A program made the position numbers and the translations under genes. Shown here one piece after another: positions 4,295-20,989 of a stretch of 30,800 bases of DNA. The DNA is from a virus, in the IMG/VR virus record IMGVR_UViG_3300020472_000112, positions 1 through 30,800 of that record, one strand, 5' to 3'. Below the pieces are notes generated by a model. The model was not told where the DNA came from and ran no database searches. It saw nothing but the letters and a program-made list of their open reading frames with translations. Within the stretch, counting starts at the first letter, position 1. Each line of letters starts with the position of its first letter.

Positions 4295-4302
4295 TATTTA
4301 GA
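4295..4302 (-). promoter_or_regulatory. possible late promoter for the gp4 operon
   Basis: On the minus strand this reads TCTAAATA, seven of eight bases of the T4 late -10 element TATAAATA, 26 bases before the gp4 ATG. The plus strand of the same gap contains TATAAAAT at 4286-4293, close to the divergent start at 4302. The region is AT-rich, so chance matches are likely. Confidence 0.35.
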
Positions 4303-5036
4303 TGTCTGTCGATACGGAATCACTATATTTGAATATGTCGGACGCAAGTTCGATCCTTTCTAAACTTGCAATCTCAAGTCAGTTTAAGGTTTCATTGGAT
4401 CTTGTTCGTAGATCTCCTACGGGTAATGATTTGGATTTACTTGAATACTTAACTAATTGTGGTCTCTTCTTAGATGTTAAATCTACAGATGAGAAGTATG
4501 ATTTCTTATGCTCTGATGCAAGTCTTCCTCAAACTAACTTTGATATTGTAGAAGAGTATGGAGCCCGTCAGGGAATGATTGAGAAGATGGCTGCAAGAAG
4601 AGTATATACTGAATTTGATTTAACTTTCTATGTGGATAATCAATATAATATTTTAAGACTATTTGAGGAGTGGATGAATTATATTAATCCAATATACAAT
4701 GAGAGTAATGGTAGATATGATGGAAGAATTGTTGGACAATTGAATCAATACAGGGAAAGGAATTCATATGCAAGGATGAGATATCCTGATGAGTATAAGA
4801 GAGTGTTATCAATTACGAAATTTGAAAGAGATCTTGTACAGAGTCCAAATGCGAAGAGCAATAAGAGATTCACCAATCAACCTATGTTAACGTATAGGTT
4901 TATTGATGCTTTCCCAATTACTCTTAACTCTGTTCCATTAACATATGAAGGTAGTACAATCACTCAAGTGTCAGTAACTTTTAGTTATCTACGACACACT
5001 GTTGAAAAACATGGAGAGGTTAGACTTACCATCTAA
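4302..5036 (+). CDS. tail tube / gp54-like tube initiator protein
   Basis: A 244-aa protein of the gp19/gp54 tail-tube superfamily. Signals are LPQTNFDIVEEYGARQG, which corresponds to the P-x-N beta-hairpin region of tube proteins, then VYTEFDLTFYVDNQYNILRLF and EEWMNYI (the conserved F-x-x-W helix), and near the end AFPITLNSVPLTYEG and VSVTFSYLRHTVEK, the family's C-terminal strand pair. It is divergent from gp4 and precedes gp26. Because gp48 and the hub genes surround it, gp54 (tube initiator, 320 aa in T4) is favoured over the main tube protein gp19, but the sequence alone does not separate the two. Confidence 0.75.
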   Translation: MSVDTESLYLNMSDASSILSKLAISSQFKVSLDLVRRSPTGNDLDLLEYLTNCGLFLDVKSTDEKYDFLCSDASLPQTNFDIVEEYGARQGMIEKMAARRVYTEFDLTFYVDNQYNILRLFEEWMNYINPIYNESNGRYDGRIVGQLNQYRERNSYARMRYPDEYKRVLSITKFERDLVQSPNAKSNKRFTNQPMLTYRFIDAFPITLNSVPLTYEGSTITQVSVTFSYLRHTVEKHGEVRLTI

Positions 5037-5064: not shown

Positions 5065-5790
5065 ATGCCTTTACCAAAAATTACTACTCCAACCTATGAG
5101 TTGGTATTACCTTCCTCTGGGAAGAAGATAAAATATCGTCCATTTCTTGTACGAGAAGAGAAGATACTAATTCTTGCAATGGAAAGTGGAGATCAGAAAC
5201 AAATTACTGATGCCATTAAAACAACTTTAAAATCTTGTATTACCACAAGGGGAATTAAAGTTGATGACCTACCAACATTTGATATTGAATATATCTTTCT
5301 GAATATTCGAGGAAAGTCAGTTGGAGAAGCAATTGATTTAGTTGTGACATGTCCCGATGATGAAGAAACTCAAGTCGAAGTCAAAATTTATATTGATGAG
5401 ATAAAGGTTGATAAACCAAAGGAGCATAGTCGTGATATTAAATTGGATGATACGTTGACATTAAGAATGAAGTATCCTTCTCTTAATGAATTTGTTAAGA
5501 CTAATTTTGATTTTGGTGGAGAAGATGCTGCACAAATTGAACAGTCATTTGAAATCATTTCATCATGCATTGATGTAGTTTATAATGAAGAAGAGTCTTG
5601 GGCAGCTGATGACTGTACTAAAAAAGAATTGACTCAGTGGATGGAAGGATTAAACTCTGGTCAATTTAAGCAGATTGAGTCTTTCTTTGAGACGATGCCT
5701 AAGTTATCCCATACAATTAAAGTAAAAAATCCAAACACAAAAGTTGAAAGTGACGTGACGTTGGAGGGTCTAACGAGTTTTTTCGTTTAA
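5065..5790 (+). CDS. 26: gp26 baseplate hub subunit / tail assembly chaperone
   Basis: A 241-aa protein of the T4 gp26 family (T4: 208 aa). The N-terminus PLPKITTPTYELVLPSSGKK followed by YRPFLVREEKILILAMES is the family hallmark. Next come TLKSCITTRGIKVDDLPTFD and YIFLNIRGKSVGE. The C-terminal half is acidic and helical and ends LEGLTSFFV. T4 gp26 was assigned to the hub, but its place just before gp51 and the tape-measure region fits a tail assembly chaperone. The end of the gene overlaps a complete -1 frameshift signal that would extend it into gp51, giving a product of about 301 aa. GAGGTG (5047-5052) is a distant ribosome site for the start. Confidence 0.9.
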   Translation: MPLPKITTPTYELVLPSSGKKIKYRPFLVREEKILILAMESGDQKQITDAIKTTLKSCITTRGIKVDDLPTFDIEYIFLNIRGKSVGEAIDLVVTCPDDEETQVEVKIYIDEIKVDKPKEHSRDIKLDDTLTLRMKYPSLNEFVKTNFDFGGEDAAQIEQSFEIISSCIDVVYNEEESWAADDCTKKELTQWMEGLNSGQFKQIESFFETMPKLSHTIKVKNPNTKVESDVTLEGLTSFFV

Positions 5791-5818
5791 TTATGGCTCA
5801 TATTGATCTTGAGTCATA
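5763..5818 (+). promoter_or_regulatory. programmed -1 ribosomal frameshift signal (gp26/gp51)
   Basis: Three standard parts are present in the right order and spacing. An SD-like GGAGGG (5763-5768) is followed nine bases later by the heptamer T_TTT_TTC (5778-5784), placed exactly in the gp26 reading phase (AGT TTT TTC). After a 7-base spacer an 8-bp stem TATGGCTC (5792-5799)/GAGTCATA (5811-5818) with one G-T pair closes an 11-base loop. Slipping back one base continues as CGT TTA ATT ATG into gp51 with no stop. Without slipping, gp26 ends one codon after the heptamer. Confidence 0.8.
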
Positions 5819-5969
5819 TTATAAACTTAACTTTTCGTTGATGCAACACCATAAATACTCACTAACTGAGATTGAAAACATGATGCCGTGGGAACGAGAA
5901 GTATATCTCGGTCTTTTAAATCAATACATTGAAGAGGAAAATTTAAAAGCACAACAGGCAAATAGGTAG
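5793..5969 (+). CDS. 51: gp51-like hub assembly factor / C-terminal part of frameshifted chaperone
   Basis: A 58-aa reading frame in the -1 frame relative to gp26, beginning MAHIDLESYYKLNFSLMQHH and containing MMPWEREVYLGLLNQYIEEE. The M-P-W-E-R-E-x-Y-L-x-L-L pattern resembles the short T extension of phage tail chaperones. Gene 51 also follows gene 26 in T4. There is no ribosome site at a normal distance from this ATG (the nearest, GGAGGG, is 24 bases away), so the main product may be the gp26-gp51 fusion (240 residues + RLI + 58), with a free 58-aa protein optional. The stop codon abuts the next ATG directly. Confidence 0.8.
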   Translation: MAHIDLESYYKLNFSLMQHHKYSLTEIENMMPWEREVYLGLLNQYIEEENLKAQQANR

Positions 5970-7244
5970 ATGGCAATTTCTCCATTCTTTAAACCAACAA
6001 AAGTAATTAGACCTGCAGGAGGAGGTTTGATTAGTGCTGCAAAGAATAATATTAGATCATTACAGACTAAAACGCAGAACATATCAGAACCCAGAAGTGA
6101 TAATAAGTCTCAGAAGTTTGGAGCAGCATATACAAATTTCTTTGGTTCTAAGAAGACAGTAAAGATACTACAAAAAAATCTAACAGCAATTAAGAAATCT
6201 CTTGCTTCAACCTTTGAGATTGCTATTGCATTGAGAAAGGCAATTGCTCAAACAGCAAAAGGTTTTGGTGGTGGAGGTAAAAAAGGTGGATTGTTTGGTG
6301 GACTTGGTGGTATATTAGGTATTGGTGGTGGTTTGATTGGATTGATTGGTGGACTTGCTAGTATACTTACAAATCCGTGGGTGTTAGGGATACTTGGTGC
6401 AGGTTCGTTGCTTGCAGCTATTAAATTGGTAACGGGTAACGGTCAAGTTGAAAGATTTTTGAGAGAGTTTATTAAAGATTCATTAGCAGAGTCAATTTTT
6501 CCAGGAATTAATGACAATCAAAACACAAATGAACTGCAAATGGATCAAACTATAGATGAACTTGGTTCTTCGGATGCACTTGCTGTTTTTAAAGCAAGAT
6601 TGGCATCGTTGAAAGAAGAACGAGGATTTGGTAAGTGGAATTGGTTTAGTGATAGTAATAAAGAAATCAGAGATTTGAAGTACAAAATTGGTGTAATGGA
6701 AACAGCAGGTGTGAAACCTGGTGAGATGTCTGGTAGTAAATTTGAAAATAATGTTTCTAATTTTGGAACAAAGGTAGAAAATAGGGCGAATTTGGAGAAG
6801 GAATTTAAAACTAAAAGAGATGAAGCAGGACTGAAAGTATTAGATGATAGAATGGCTGCTATGCCAGAAGATCTTAAGGATATGATCTTTAATGATCCCA
6901 CTAATCCCAGATTAAAAGCATATAATGCTGAAACTACTAGACAGTATGATGCAGTACAACAGGCAATCAGAGATGATTACTTACCTAAAATTACAAATAC
7001 AGAAGTACAAAATAAAAATAAAGTTAAGGAAGTATCTTCAGTTAATAAAAATAACAATGCTATGGGTGGTACGGTAATTCCATATGAGATTGGGAATAAA
7101 TCTGGTGCTGTTAATAGTGGTCAAACTTTAAAAAATAGTATTGGAGATACTACTACTGGTTCTGATATTGCTTGGTTTAATTCTAGAAACACTGATATGT
7201 ATGGGTGCTTTAAAACAGCAGCAGAATGTAATATAACAGTATGA
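5970..7244 (+). CDS. probable tape-measure-region protein with hydrophobic segment
   Basis: A 424-aa protein in the slot just after the tail chaperones, where a tape measure is expected. It begins MAISPFFKPTKVIRPAGGG. Residues about 60-95 form a basic amphipathic helix. Residues about 97-155 are a long Gly/Leu/Ile-rich hydrophobic stretch (GGLGGILGIGGGLIGLIGG, then LASILTNPWVLGILG), the type of membrane-active segment seen in tape measures. The region from 185 to 330 is charged and helical; the C-terminus is Asn/Gly/Ser-rich. It is shorter than expected for a sole tape measure. The next gene, with a similar plan, overlaps it by ATGA. The assignment is by position and composition. Confidence 0.6.
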   Translation: MAISPFFKPTKVIRPAGGGLISAAKNNIRSLQTKTQNISEPRSDNKSQKFGAAYTNFFGSKKTVKILQKNLTAIKKSLASTFEIAIALRKAIAQTAKGFGGGGKKGGLFGGLGGILGIGGGLIGLIGGLASILTNPWVLGILGAGSLLAAIKLVTGNGQVERFLREFIKDSLAESIFPGINDNQNTNELQMDQTIDELGSSDALAVFKARLASLKEERGFGKWNWFSDSNKEIRDLKYKIGVMETAGVKPGEMSGSKFENNVSNFGTKVENRANLEKEFKTKRDEAGLKVLDDRMAAMPEDLKDMIFNDPTNPRLKAYNAETTRQYDAVQQAIRDDYLPKITNTEVQNKNKVKEVSSVNKNNNAMGGTVIPYEIGNKSGAVNSGQTLKNSIGDTTTGSDIAWFNSRNTDMYGCFKTAAECNITV

Positions 7245-8344
7245 AGTTAAAAATAAAACCTACTAAGAATACTGTTGCTCTTAGAAAAGTAAAGTTTAGG
7301 AAGGAGAGTGACTTTAATAAGTTCTTAAAGATAGTATCTAAGAATACTAAGGAGTTGCAAAGAATTAAGTTACCATCAAAGAGTGATGTAAAAAAGAAAA
7401 GTGGATTTAATTTATTACCATTACTTGCATTGGGGGCTTTGATTGCTGCTCTTCTCAATAAAGGTAAAGGTAGTGGAGATGATGATGGTGTTAGTGGAGG
7501 TGATGGTATTATTAGTGGTGGTGATAAAATTGATTCTACTTCTAATGTTTTAAGGAAAAGGACAATGAATAATACTAAAAATGATAAAAAGAATAGAAGG
7601 AAAATTGATCTTAGGAGAAAGAGTAGAAGAAAGAAAAGATTACTTAAAAGGATTAGAAATAAAAGAAAGATTGATCTTAAAAATAAGAGGAAAACGAATA
7701 CCAAAACAAAAACTAAAACAAAAATAGAAACTAAAACTAAAACTAAAATTAAGGTTGGAAAGAATGATATAAAAAACCAACTAAAGCAAAAAAGAAAACT
7801 TCAAAAGATAACAAGAGAGACGTTGAAAGCATCAAAATTGCTTGGTGCTGCAGCTAAAAGTCCTCAAGCTCTTGCTGGAGCATTGATTGTTAATGATATT
7901 ATGAACAATCCAGTGGCTGATGGTACTATGGATGCTCATCTTGCTTATGAAAAGCAATTACAAAAGGAGAAGTTCAAAACACAAGCAAATAAACAAAAGG
8001 ATCTTATTAATAAAGAGATAGATCAGTTGATATATACTAGATCACAACTTGATGTTAGTGATCGTAGAACTTATCAACACTTGACTGCCAAGATTGAAGG
8101 ACTATTGGTTAAGTCTGCAGCAATTACACCAAAGGCTATAGAACAACAATACATTAAAAAATCATCTGAAAATCCAGTTATATTATATCCAATAGATTCA
8201 CAAAAAGTTCAACCAATAATTAATGCACCAACTTCTAATCAACAATCCCAGTCACAATCGCAAGCAGGTAATGATGTAGTTGGTGGTCAATCTGATTCAT
8301 TAAATATATCAGAACTATTATTACTCAATAAACTCTCTCACTAA
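7241..8344 (+). CDS. highly basic tail protein, possible second tape-measure component
   Basis: A 367-aa protein whose ATG overlaps the previous stop (ATGA). It starts MKLKIKPTKNTVALRKVKF, sharing K-P-T-K with its neighbour's N-terminus. Residues 56-73 are a single hydrophobic segment (FNLLPLLALGALIAALL), then a Gly/Asp linker. Residues about 105-175 are extremely basic (RRKIDLRRKSRRKKRLLK, then Lys-Thr repeats). After that come helices with LLGAAAKSPQALAGALIV and a Gln/Ser-rich tail ending LNISELLLLNKLSH. A hydrophobic segment plus a nucleic-acid- or membrane-binding basic arm fits a protein held in the tail and ejected with DNA. It ends at the TAATG junction with gp27. Function is inferred. 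Confidence 0.55.
   Translation: MKLKIKPTKNTVALRKVKFRKESDFNKFLKIVSKNTKELQRIKLPSKSDVKKKSGFNLLPLLALGALIAALLNKGKGSGDDDGVSGGDGIISGGDKIDSTSNVLRKRTMNNTKNDKKNRRKIDLRRKSRRKKRLLKRIRNKRKIDLKNKRKTNTKTKTKTKIETKTKTKIKVGKNDIKNQLKQKRKLQKITRETLKASKLLGAAAKSPQALAGALIVNDIMNNPVADGTMDAHLAYEKQLQKEKFKTQANKQKDLINKEIDQLIYTRSQLDVSDRRTYQHLTAKIEGLLVKSAAITPKAIEQQYIKKSSENPVILYPIDSQKVQPIINAPTSNQQSQSQSQAGNDVVGGQSDSLNISELLLLNKLSH
7697..7752 (+). repeat. ACTAAA-type hexamer repeat encoding Lys-Thr
   Basis: A degenerate six-base period (ACTAAA/ACAAAA) runs for about nine units inside the basic tail gene and encodes alternating Lys and Thr with one Ile-Glu interruption (residues about 153-171). Such a tract can gain or lose units by slippage without changing frame. 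Confidence 0.75.
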
Positions 8345-16832: not shown

Positions 16833-18866
16833 ATGATTGGTACTGAATCTACTGGTGGAACTACACCAGTTATAAATTATACTCCTCAAGCTATTGATGA
16901 GTATATTGTAGTTGTTAACTTACCAGAAGATTGGGAAACCGTTCATTATTATATTATTAATGAAAATGAAATAGATGGGATACCAAATAGAAAGATAGAT
17001 TGTTCTAATGCACAAGAATTTTCATTGCGAACTGCAATCTATGAGATGAGTGCTGCAGAAGCAGATATTTTAAAGACACATGAGAAGGTAGAGTGTGTTG
17101 AATTAAATCCTGATAAGTATCCACAACCAGTGGATAATGATGCCAATAGGTTCAATAAACTTGTTGCATTTAATAAACCTATTATACCTGCCAATATGTT
17201 AGGTAATGCTTCTACAGTGCATACAAATGGAGTTCGTTCAAATTGGTCAATGTTGAATGTGGGTGATCCATCAAGTGAACCATATCAGGGTGAAGGAATT
17301 AATATTGTTGATACTGTTGATCGTGACTTGGAATATGTTGTTACTGGAAGTAATGTTGATGCAGTTATTATTGATAGTGGTGTGAGTGTTTTGCATCCAG
17401 AATTTTTAAAAAGTGATGGAACAACTAGAGTAAGAGATGTTATTCTTGATGGGCCAATGTTAGTGGATCCAGCTGCATTTAGTGGATATACAGGGAGTGT
17501 AACTATAGACGGTGTTAATATTGGTACTCGTGCTCAAGAAGCAAGAGCACGTTCTTGGTGGTCAACTACTTCAATAAGGTCTTCTACATTTCAAAGTCTT
17601 GGTACTGCATCAATAAGTTCTAGTTATACAAGAATACATGCACACAGTAAAAATGGAACTAATGCTATGACAAGTGGACATGGAACGGCATGTGCATCAC
17701 AAATTGGTGGAAAATCATTTGGATTGGCATTTGAATGTAATTTATGGGGTATAAGAATTAGTTTTGGAGACGGGTTTATATCTGCTTCAACTGCATTAAA
17801 TGTTTGTACGATATTTCATAATGCTAAAAAAGCATTATCATCTGATCCTGATCCTACACTAATAAACAATAGTTATGGTGTTACTAATGAAACTGCAAAT
17901 AGTAGTGGTACTACTTATTATCATACTTATAGGGGGAGTAATACAACATATACTGGTAATGATTCCAATGTAAATCCACCATCTGGTTCTGGTGGATTGA
18001 GAAATCATAAGTATTTTACATATTATTCAGGTACTTCACCTACATATAACGCATATGGTGGAACTGGTCAGTATATGAATTCTGCTTCTACTACTAGTAG
18101 TGCTGCAGAAAATGCCATTGCTGCTGGATGTATTGTTGCTGCATCTGCTGGAAATAGAAATATGAAGATATCAGATAAAAATGATGTAGATTTTAATAAC
18201 AAATATTATGGAACAAGTTCTTCATATTCTGGAGGTTCTTATACTAATCGGGTTGGTGGAGTTCAGAAAGGATTTTCAGGTGACCATGATCAGGGTAAAG
18301 GAACAATTAGGGTTGGTGCAATGGATTGTGCTGTGGAACCTGCTGATGAGAAGCAAGGTGCAACTGCGTATAGTATGAGAAAGGTTTGTTATTCTTCAAA
18401 TGGCCCAATGGTTGATATTTTTGCTCCTGCTGAAATGAGTATGGCAGCAGGATACGCATCAGGTGAAAGTTATGCAAGATCAGATGATAGTAATTATTAT
18501 GATAGATGGTTCAATGGAACAAGTTCTGCAACTCCAAATGCTTGCTCTGTTATAGCACTTTATTTGGGTGTAAATAGATCTGCAGATCAAAGTGCAACTA
18601 GATCATGGTTGACAGGAACAGCATGTAAAACTAATTTACTATCTGATCCTTATCCTGGTGTGAATGATACTGGTTATTGGTCTCTTAATTATAACGCTTC
18701 AACTGATTCAGCAAGTTTAAATAGATCTTATAATTTTCGTGGTAATGGTAATTTGAGAGGTGCTCCAAATCGTACATTATTTAATCCATATGAATCTGGA
18801 ACAGCAACTGAATACACATTAACTGGACCATTAAATGTTACTGGTTCATTAAACATTACAACATAA
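16833..18866 (+). CDS. subtilisin-like serine protease (S8) with fibre-type C-terminus
   Basis: A 677-aa protein with all subtilase signatures. Asp181 lies in VIIDSGV, His283 in SGHGTACAS, the oxyanion Asn441 in ASAGNRN and the nucleophile Ser564 in FNGTSSATPNA; LINNSYG matches the substrate-binding strand. Residues about 20-100 (EYIVVVNLPEDWE, then MSAAEADILKTHEKVECVEL) look like an inhibitor I9-type propeptide. The spacing from Asp to His (102 residues) shows a large insertion. There is no signal peptide. The end (LTGPLNVTGSLNITT) is a tail-fibre motif also found in the next gene (ITGDLNVTGS). A virion-bound enzyme that trims fibres or attacks host surface protein is inferred; the protease fold itself is clear. 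Confidence 0.92.
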   Translation: MIGTESTGGTTPVINYTPQAIDEYIVVVNLPEDWETVHYYIINENEIDGIPNRKIDCSNAQEFSLRTAIYEMSAAEADILKTHEKVECVELNPDKYPQPVDNDANRFNKLVAFNKPIIPANMLGNASTVHTNGVRSNWSMLNVGDPSSEPYQGEGINIVDTVDRDLEYVVTGSNVDAVIIDSGVSVLHPEFLKSDGTTRVRDVILDGPMLVDPAAFSGYTGSVTIDGVNIGTRAQEARARSWWSTTSIRSSTFQSLGTASISSSYTRIHAHSKNGTNAMTSGHGTACASQIGGKSFGLAFECNLWGIRISFGDGFISASTALNVCTIFHNAKKALSSDPDPTLINNSYGVTNETANSSGTTYYHTYRGSNTTYTGNDSNVNPPSGSGGLRNHKYFTYYSGTSPTYNAYGGTGQYMNSASTTSSAAENAIAAGCIVAASAGNRNMKISDKNDVDFNNKYYGTSSSYSGGSYTNRVGGVQKGFSGDHDQGKGTIRVGAMDCAVEPADEKQGATAYSMRKVCYSSNGPMVDIFAPAEMSMAAGYASGESYARSDDSNYYDRWFNGTSSATPNACSVIALYLGVNRSADQSATRSWLTGTACKTNLLSDPYPGVNDTGYWSLNYNASTDSASLNRSYNFRGNGNLRGAPNRTLFNPYESGTATEYTLTGPLNVTGSLNITT

Positions 18867-18883: not shown

Positions 18884-20989
18884 ATGGCAACCAAGGCATT
18901 TGGAGTAAAAGAATTAAAGATAGATGGTAGTGGTACTCCTACCATTGAGAGTCCTAGTGGTGGAAATCTTAATTTAACTGCTGCGACTTCTATATTCAGT
19001 GGTCATATTTCATTGGGGGATAGTAAGATAATTAAATTGGGTGCAGCCCCAGACATGTCTATATTTCATGATGGTACTAATGGTAGTATAAATGTTGCGA
19101 CTGGTTCATTAACAACTCGTGTTAAGGATACTGCTGGTAAGGGATTTTACATAGAAGATCCTAATGGTGGTACTGCTCAGACAATAGCAAAGTTTGAGAA
19201 GAACGCAACTGGTGGTGCTGGTCGTTGCGAATTGATGTATGCAGGATTAAAGAAATTTGAAACTACTTCTGCAGGTGTAACTATAACAGGAGATTTAAAT
19301 GTTACTGGTAGTGGGGGAGGAGGTGGTGGTAGTACTACTTTCATAGGACTTACAGATACTCCTAGTAGTTTTACTGCAAGTAAGATGCTTAGAGTTAATT
19401 CTAGTGGTAATGCTATTGAATTTAGTGATGTTGAGGCACTTACTATTTCTACTGCTGAATCTAGTGATGATAATAATGCATACAATATTCCATTTTTAAC
19501 TTCAACAGGTGCTGGTGGAGCTCAAAAAGGACTTCAAGTAGATAACGGTGGTTTATGGTTTAATCCAGGAACAAATTACTTTGGATGTCAGAATATTGTA
19601 CTTGGTGGTTCAAGTAATTTTGCTGGATCCATGACTGTATGGAATAGTTCTGGTAGTAAGTTTGGTCAAATAAATGGTATTGGTTTTGGTATAGGTGATA
19701 ATTCAAGTTCTACAACTAATGTTATTATAGGTCAGACTGATACTGGTTCAACTATTGGTGGTATGAATGTTGGACTTGGCTATCAGGTTTTACAGGGTAG
19801 TGGTGCTGCATCATATAATGTTGCAGTTGGTTTTCAGGCATTGATGGGTAATGATGGGGCATATAATATTGCATTAGGAGATAATGCTCTTAGTGGGTCT
19901 GGTTCTTATAATATTGGAATAGGAAGACAGGTTGGTCATCAAATAAATGGAGCCCAGTTGAATATTTTTATGGGATATCAATGTGCAAGATTAGCAACTA
20001 GTATTGGGCATTCTTTTGTTGCTGGATATAATGCTTTAGACTCCATAACGAATGGATTGATGAGTGGTCAGTCTGGAACTGGTAATAATTATGGTCATAT
20101 TGCTATTGGATACAATTCTCAAAAGGAATTTCAAGGAGTCGATGCAACTGGTTCTCCTAATATTGCAATGGGAATATTTACTTTGGAAAATAATGTTCAA
20201 GCTGGACACAATATAGCAATTGGTAATGCTGCATTGCGATATTTGGGTAAAGATATGACCAGTACCAGTAATACTGGTGGGTACGGAAATATTGCTGTTG
20301 GTACATATGCATTACAAGGTGGATATAGTGGTACTTTTAATAGCACCTCTACATTTAGAGGTGATTATAATGTTGGTGTAGGCTGGGGTGCTCTTCAAAA
20401 TCTAACAAGTTATACTTCTGATAAAAATACTGCTGTTGGGGTGGAAGCAGGTCGATACATATCGACGGGAAGTAATAATATCTGCATTGGTAATCAAGCA
20501 GGACTACAAGCTTCTCCTTCAGGTCAACTGACAACCAACTCCAATATTATTTGTCTTGGTAATGATAGTATTTCTGCTCTATATTGTGCCGATACAAGTA
20601 TATCGGATTCAGACTCTAGAGATAAAACTGATGTTGTTAACTTTACACATGGATTAAATTGGGTTAATCAATTGAATCCTGTAACATATCGTTGGGATAA
20701 ACGTACTTGGTATGGAACAGGAGTTGAAGGAGCATCAGATGAATTTTTAGGAACACCAGATGGTAGTAAAAAAGCATCTAAAGTTAACATAGGATTCTTA
20801 GCTCAAGATGTTTTGACTATTGAAGGTAATCCTAATAAAGATAATATGTTAATTGTAAATTTAAACGAAAATGAAACAAGATACGGTCTTAAATATGAAC
20901 GCCTAGTTCCCGTGCTTGTGAATGCAATCAAAGAATTATCTACAAAGAATGATGCACTCGAAGCGAGGATAGCGGCCTTAGAATCTTAA
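18884..20989 (+). CDS. tail fibre with YadA-like head repeats and S74 chaperone domain
   Basis: A 701-aa fibre. Residues 1-160 hold fibre modules (SIFSGHISLGDSKIIKLG, GVTITGDLNVTGS, a Gly6 linker, FIGLTDTPSSFTASK). Residues about 290-560 are repeats of the type YNVAVGFQALMGN, YNIALGDNALSGS, IGIGRQVG, NIAVGTYAL, like the left-handed beta-roll head of trimeric autotransporter adhesins. The C-terminus (about 570-701) is a peptidase S74 intramolecular chaperone: the SDSRDK motif with Ser576 and Lys581 as the likely self-cleavage pair, LNPVTYRWDKR, IGFLAQDV and LKYERLVPVLVNAIKEL, then a coiled coil. The chaperone drives trimer folding and is then cut off. It overlaps the oxygenase-like gene by TAATG. 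Confidence 0.9.
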   Translation: MATKAFGVKELKIDGSGTPTIESPSGGNLNLTAATSIFSGHISLGDSKIIKLGAAPDMSIFHDGTNGSINVATGSLTTRVKDTAGKGFYIEDPNGGTAQTIAKFEKNATGGAGRCELMYAGLKKFETTSAGVTITGDLNVTGSGGGGGGSTTFIGLTDTPSSFTASKMLRVNSSGNAIEFSDVEALTISTAESSDDNNAYNIPFLTSTGAGGAQKGLQVDNGGLWFNPGTNYFGCQNIVLGGSSNFAGSMTVWNSSGSKFGQINGIGFGIGDNSSSTTNVIIGQTDTGSTIGGMNVGLGYQVLQGSGAASYNVAVGFQALMGNDGAYNIALGDNALSGSGSYNIGIGRQVGHQINGAQLNIFMGYQCARLATSIGHSFVAGYNALDSITNGLMSGQSGTGNNYGHIAIGYNSQKEFQGVDATGSPNIAMGIFTLENNVQAGHNIAIGNAALRYLGKDMTSTSNTGGYGNIAVGTYALQGGYSGTFNSTSTFRGDYNVGVGWGALQNLTSYTSDKNTAVGVEAGRYISTGSNNICIGNQAGLQASPSGQLTTNSNIICLGNDSISALYCADTSISDSDSRDKTDVVNFTHGLNWVNQLNPVTYRWDKRTWYGTGVEGASDEFLGTPDGSKKASKVNIGFLAQDVLTIEGNPNKDNMLIVNLNENETRYGLKYERLVPVLVNAIKELSTKNDALEARIAALES

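Follow-up and report, generated by a model that had tools for sequence, protein, structure and literature searches.

We here show that the gp26/gp51 locus in a window of 30,800 nt, the stretch of cyanophage DNA analysed in this work, very probably encodes a pair of tail assembly chaperones (TAC), in which gp26 is the short form and a gp26-gp51 fusion produced by -1 frameshifting is the long form. Together, the conservation of the junction, the homology to T4 gp51 and a fold match to the HK97 chaperone lead us to assign gp26 as the short chaperone and the gp51 of cyanophages as the frameshift-encoded end of the long form. Judging from the junction sequences, the -1 frameshift itself is almost certain, and we have good confidence in the chaperone role of the gp26/gp51 pair.

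According to the proposed mechanism, most ribosomes would terminate at the TAA of gp26, yielding the short form of 241 aa, and some would be slowed by GGAGGG, base-paired to 16S rRNA at the rear of the decoding site, as well as by a hairpin 7 nt ahead. These slowed ribosomes would slip by -1 on T_TTT_TTC, where both Phe tRNAs could re-pair on TTT TTT, and would then add 61 residues to give the 301-aa long form. By analogy with gpG/gpGT of lambda, the short form would coat the tape-measure protein, while the long form would recruit tail tube subunits through its C-terminal extension. We infer the occurrence of the shift, whatever its efficiency, and the stimulatory roles of the two flanking elements from the signal, its phase and its conservation.

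Layout of the gp26/gp51 junction

The features of the locus are as follows.

4302-5036, + strand: tail tube protein gene, directly upstream of gp26 (Pfam Phage_TTP_2, PF23849, 7e-21)
5065-5790, + strand: gp26 ORF, 241 aa, zero-frame product and putative short tail assembly chaperone (PF12322, phrog_150, fold match of a relative)
5763-5768, + strand: SD-like GGAGGG, 9 nt 5' of the slippery site, putative internal anti-SD stimulator (sequence, conserved GAG codon)
5769-5777, + strand: spacer of 9 nt between GGAGGG and the heptamer (sequence)
5778-5784, + strand: slippery heptamer T_TTT_TTC in the gp26 phase (sequence, conservation in homologous junctions)
5785-5791, + strand: spacer of 7 nt between the heptamer and the stem (sequence)
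5788-5790, + strand: zero-frame stop TAA of gp26, which a -1 shift would bypass (sequence)
5785-5966, + strand: -1 frame extension, base 5784 being read twice, putative C-terminal domain of the long chaperone (phrog_634, phrog_150)
5792-5818, + strand: hairpin with a 9-bp stem (5792-5800/5810-5818) and a 9-nt loop, enclosing the gp51 ATG (MFE, covariation)
5793-5969, + strand: gp51 in its usual annotation, 58 aa from the ATG (no SD; ATG missing in some relatives)
5967-5969, + strand: TAG stop of the -1 frame (sequence)
5970-8344, + strand: two ORFs (5970-7244 and 7241-8344) in the tape-measure position, assigned by position

A preliminary description of this DNA had proposed a complete frameshift signal at the junction, and the series of GGAGGG, 9 nt, T_TTT_TTC in the gp26 phase and 7 nt was indeed read in the sequence, where the 3' end of gp26 is AGT TTT TTC GTT TAA. 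The stem-loop after the heptamer is likewise present; the 8 bp originally given for its stem were corrected to 9 bp, counting one G.U pair. No stop interrupts the -1 frame between the slip and the TAG at 5967-5969, and its translation yields a fusion of 301 residues (...LTSFFRLIMAHIDLES...), matching the product of about 301 aa that had been predicted to run into gp51. Among 20 ORFs of the window surveyed, gp26 is the only one whose last 45 nt contain an X_XXY_YYZ heptamer in phase.

The frameshift site in dnaX of E. coli combines an SD-like element about 10 nt upstream, the tandem heptamer A_AAA_AAG and a hairpin shortly downstream. The resemblance to dnaX that had been pointed out earlier holds for the window, where the SD-like element, a tandem heptamer and a hairpin within 5-9 nt are all found. 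In contrast, the shift in dnaX leads to an early stop and a shorter product, whereas here the product would be longer and the heptamer is U_UUU_UUC.

Conservation of the slippery site

Homologous loci were gathered from IMG/VR using gp26 queries of several clades, and annotated phages were added. Heptamer and phase proved to be conserved, as TTTTTT[C/T/G] in the gp26 phase was found in 181/185 homologous junctions with enough sequence, located 7-13 nt before the gp26 stop and followed by an uninterrupted -1 frame. Junctions without a slippery site or with stops between the two frames, the pattern that would speak against frameshifting, did not appear apart from the few exceptions described below. 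When 109 non-redundant junctions were compared, the codon 5' of the Phe pair (AGT, TCT, GAT, GCT or AAT) ended in T in 109/109, and the following codons were TTT in 109/109 and TTC in 105/109. Elsewhere in these genes, 33% of the Ala codons end in T and 32% of the Phe codons are TTC, and NNT TTT TTC is almost never used at other Phe-Phe pairs. For 24 junctions mutually <70% identical, codon usage gave a log10 P of about -20.5 for NNT TTT TTC, a rough estimate that ignores phylogeny. Judged from these comparisons, the heptamer at the gp26/gp51 junction is not a product of chance.

The slippery site is widely spread, T_TTT_TTC being found also in Kyanoviridae, Straboviridae (Emmerichvirinae and Schizotequatrovirus), Menderavirus and phage ORM_20, and as the variants T_TTT_TTG/T in Pootjesviridae. 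All five further annotated phages carry the heptamer, namely Mendera, two Vibrio phages (one of them filed as Schizotequatrovirus), Agrobacterium phage Atu_ph04, in which it reads TTTTTTT, and Ochrobactrum phage ORM_20.

A run of six Ts could also allow RNA polymerase to slip, and a net change of -2 or +1 base in the transcript would give an identical fusion. Polymerase slippage usually requires longer runs. Moreover, it needs no codon phase, SD-like element or RNA stem, yet all of these are conserved here, and the run is exactly six, stands in strict codon phase and is followed by C in the same 105/109 junctions; we therefore regard it as highly improbable. Another explanation would be that gp26 and gp51 are a single ORF split by a sequencing or assembly error, in line with the varying length of the T run between records (a single ORF in locus L139, and one T fewer in phage IME-SM1 than in Mendera). 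However, the two-frame layout is present in 181/185 records, including the isolate genomes of P-SSM2 and P-SSM4, and the single-frame cases are the exceptions, so that an error has next to no probability and is refuted for the group. Both polymerase slippage and assembly error were thus rejected as the source of the fusion.

The four of 185 junctions without an in-phase heptamer are those of L139, Stenotrophomonas phage IME-SM1, Vibrio phage K452 and Salmonella phage Vi01. In L139 (1501-2394), a 2-nt deletion at the slip site joins gp26 and gp51 into a single ORF, which from its sequence may mean either that the short form was lost naturally or that the T run contains an error, the latter being possible since the 236-kb contig contains only one PF12322 gene. 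IME-SM1 (L086, 2239) has five Ts, whereas its near relative Mendera (L199, 1248) has six and an intact heptamer; the annotated gp26 of IME-SM1 therefore continues in another frame and the slip site is hidden. Most likely, as the comparison with Mendera suggests, the missing T is a homopolymer error. Tandem heptamers are absent from Vi01 (L085, Ackermannviridae; ATT TTC ATT TAA) and K452 (L083; CTT TTT GCG TAA), where the -1 frame is still open into a gp51-like domain, and these two junctions possibly use a single-tRNA slip.

Conservation of the SD-like element and the stem

The SD-like element is found at one fixed distance 5' of the slip in 88/109 junctions, and its Glu codon is GAG in 88/102 relatives that have Glu at this position, compared to 29% GAG elsewhere. 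On the 3' side, the 46 nt following the slip in the window (5785-5830) fold at -12.7 kcal/mol (z -5.1), with 0/200 shuffles as good, and the corresponding 45 nt have a z below -2 in 61% of the 109 junctions as opposed to 5.5% of control windows. In 38 diverse sequences, the 9-bp stem was paired in 71% of cells compared to 62.6% in shuffles, and 25 cells with double changes were counted compared to 11.2 in shuffles (0/500 as high in both cases). The stem also outscored slid versions of itself in pairing and in covariation score. Compensatory variants of the stem include GCTCA/TGAGT, GCGCA/TGCGT and GCACA/TGTGT, and the stem arms of the S-N03 clade are ATGATGCAC/GTGCATCAT.

The expected conservation of the stem was therefore borne out as far as enriched pairing and compensatory changes are concerned, but not as a universal property. 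In L134/L143, L162-like, several P-SSM4-like, Aeromonas 65 and Rhizobium loci, the stem is absent or cannot be clearly recognised, and several of these clades keep the heptamer; a universal stem was accordingly rejected. An outer helix (GUUUA/UAAAC) of the predicted fold of the window was set aside as not conserved.

Expression of gp51

An ATG is found soon after the slip in 91/109 junctions and is absent in 18/109. In the 91 junctions that have this ATG, no SD of at least 4 nt precedes it at 4-18 nt, and this includes the window, in agreement with the earlier observation that its gp51 lacks a normally spaced ribosome site. The missing SD is modest evidence alone, since the gp26 starts in these phages have an SD of at least 4 nt in 39/104 only. 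In 15/109 junctions, including the Aeromonas phage 65.2 locus, no ATG, GTG or TTG precedes the conserved gp51 domain. Moreover, gp51 is unannotated in Aeromonas phage 65.2 (L082, 2193-2369) and Ochrobactrum phage ORM_20 (L205, after 2145), where the -1 frame encodes the gp51 domain and no usual start codon stands before its conserved part. Independent initiation of gp51 is therefore not conserved, whereas the heptamer is, and a separate gp51 gene as the sole explanation was rejected in view of the missing start codons in these 15/109 junctions together with the invariant heptamer. On this comparison, gp51 is unlikely to function, at least mainly, as a gene of its own.

Alternatively, ribosomes terminating gp26 could reinitiate at the ATG 2 nt past the TAA, with the stem hiding this ATG from free ribosomes and the heptamer being incidental. 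The ATG present in the 91/109 junctions is enclosed by the stem, mean stem pairing is 7.45 of 9 bp in junctions with the gp51 ATG compared to 3.4 in those without it (a difference confounded by phylogeny), and the inspected records, if they give gp51 at all, give it as a CDS of its own. Reinitiation nevertheless leaves the invariant NNT_TTT_TTC unexplained, does not account for the 15/109 junctions lacking any ATG, GTG or TTG, and does not fit with T4 gp51, which corresponds to the fused form and not to a free C-terminal domain. We consider it very unlikely as an explanation of the locus, and it could serve as a minor second route. Clades without the gp51 ATG are for the most part also without the stem; this association may reflect shared ancestry, or the stem may also hide the ATG. 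A dual device in which the slip makes the long chaperone and the ATG-enclosing stem also blocks or meters free initiation of gp51, thereby tuning three products, is conceivable and in our opinion rather doubtful.

Relation to gp26 and gp51 of T4

With frameshifting as the preferred reading, the domains of the two products can be compared with those of T4. The gp26 of the window matches Pfam PF12322 (T4_baseplate) at 2e-75, with 253.6 bits against a curated cut-off of 24.5, and phrog_150 at 7e-83 (279 bits). For the -1 frame product, the best-fitting family was phrog_634, "baseplate hub assembly catalyst" (3e-29); a further match fell in the C terminus of phrog_150 (positions 230-278 of 282, 1e-7), which suggests that in some phages the two parts are joined in a single chain. 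With the complete 301-aa fusion, the phrog_150 match covers residues 1-287 (7e-95). T4 gene 51 (249 aa) has a full PF12322 domain and the gp51 domain over its whole length, and aligned relatives of T4 gp51 match the fused form over the full length. The gp51 ORF of the window consists of the C-terminal domain only, unlike the separate full-length gp51 of the T4 type. T4 gp26 is homologous to gp26 of the window and T4 gp51 is homologous end to end with the fused product, but in T4 the long form would come from a separate gene without frameshift, whereas the cyanophage gp51 is a C-terminal piece.

Two PF12322 genes were found in T4, Aeromonas phage 44RR and Klebsiella phage KM3, and one in 17 records, several of which are fragments, including P-SSM2, P-SSM4, S-N03, Aeromonas 65.2, Vibrio D483 and Mendera. 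The window is itself a 30.8-kb genome fragment, and a second PF12322 copy could lie outside it. A tree of the PF12322 domain placed the duplicated copies on one side of a branch (95/95), which is compatible with a single duplication, subject to long-branch and rooting caveats. Schizotequatrovirus and Emmerichvirinae have retained the frameshift layout even though they are filed with T4 in Straboviridae. The sequences suggest that T4 makes the pair from two duplicated genes, 26 for the short and 51 for the long form.

Comparison with known frameshifting chaperones

A ribosomal slip that yields a shorter and a longer protein is usual among the tail assembly chaperones of phages. In lambda, gpG and gpGT are tail assembly chaperones produced by -1 frameshifting (Levin 1993; Xu, Hendrix and Duda 2004, cited in PMC12859696; review PMC5009743). 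The window resembles lambda in having a short and a predicted -1 extended form, with an N-domain fold, seen in a relative, like that of HK97 gp13. It is distinguished from lambda by the putative slip on T_TTT_TTC, the upstream SD-like element and the downstream stem, and by its PF12322 proteins, for which sequence searches returned no lambda-type chaperone family. A TAC frameshift with a conserved GTTTTT is described for Vandenendeviridae and Andersonviridae (Adele paper, PMC12846349), similarly with a poly-T -1 site that is conserved where the short chaperone gene ends, a -1 frame without stops and a downstream piece mis-annotated as a gene. These are other families with another motif, and the parts of that paper dealing with the site mention neither an SD-like element nor a covarying stem.

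Tail assembly chaperone genes of T4-like phages were identified by Vladimirov et al. 2022 (cited in PMC10885494 and PMC12846349); PRFect (PMC10885494) cites this work for certain T4-like phages that carry a short gene together with a long, fused one, and the Adele paper cites it for poly-T slip signals in the chaperone genes of T4-like phages. Hence, according to these citing papers, frameshifted and two-gene chaperones of T4-like phages were already known and the idea is not new. In the literature searched, with Vladimirov et al. 2022 represented by the papers citing it, we found no description of a gp26-gp51 frameshift in cyanophages by name. The present analysis contributes a quantification of the three-part signal in cyanophages and of how widely it is spread, together with the gp51s that have no start codon and the complementary pattern of one-gene and two-gene phages. 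It also explains why the cyanophage "hub assembly catalyst" is about 60 aa while its T4 namesake is 249 aa, the cyanophage gene representing only the part of the long chaperone that is added by the frameshift. In several hundred public cyanophage records (377 phage records were DNA-matched), the two genes should probably be replaced by a joined CDS. In a review of the T4 tail, gp26 and gp51 are described as hub assembly chaperones, gp51 being listed as an essential protein whose function is unknown and which is not part of the finished particle (PMC3004832). The old question of the role of T4 gp51 becomes testable as a question of tail assembly chaperones, and a single locus with a ribosomal slip versus two duplicated genes offers a natural comparison for one protein pair.

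Fold and gene neighbourhood

The suggestion that gp26 and gp51, called hub protein and hub catalyst in T4, act as a tail chaperone pair gained support from the fold match to HK97 gp13, the gene order and the full-length homology of T4 gp51, from which we infer chaperone function in this phage. The protein modelled was that of L139, a natural single-frame relative and not the fusion of the window (pLDDT 88.8). The best two PDB matches of its N-domain were the HK97 tail assembly chaperone structures 2OB9 (Z 7.4; 84 residues, 3.7 A) and 3FGX (Z 7.3), the latter described as a tail assembly chaperone in PMC9603447; the matches span residues 1-96 and the next row has a Z of 3.6 (VIA-align). This constitutes moderate support, since the tool itself places a Z of 7.4 in the middle range. 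With Foldseek alone, the model had no match in the PDB at E <= 0.001, and sequence searches of the PDB gave no convincing relative.

The order of tail tube gene, chaperone, extension and tape-measure position would be the same as in V - G/GT - H of lambda. Neither of the two ORFs in the tape-measure position gave a confident Pfam or phrog profile hit, tape-measure profiles included; in Vibrio phage D483 the downstream gene matches the tape-measure phrog_58 (6e-8). The two ORFs of the window overlap by ATGA, and two large ORFs also occupy the tape-measure position in P-SSM2 (529 + 516 aa) and P-SSM4 (1064 + 1079 aa). Further downstream, the structural genes of the window include a subtilisin-like protease at 16833-18866 (Peptidase_S8, 1.5e-15), followed at 18884-20989 by a tail fibre-like protein with an S74 chaperone.
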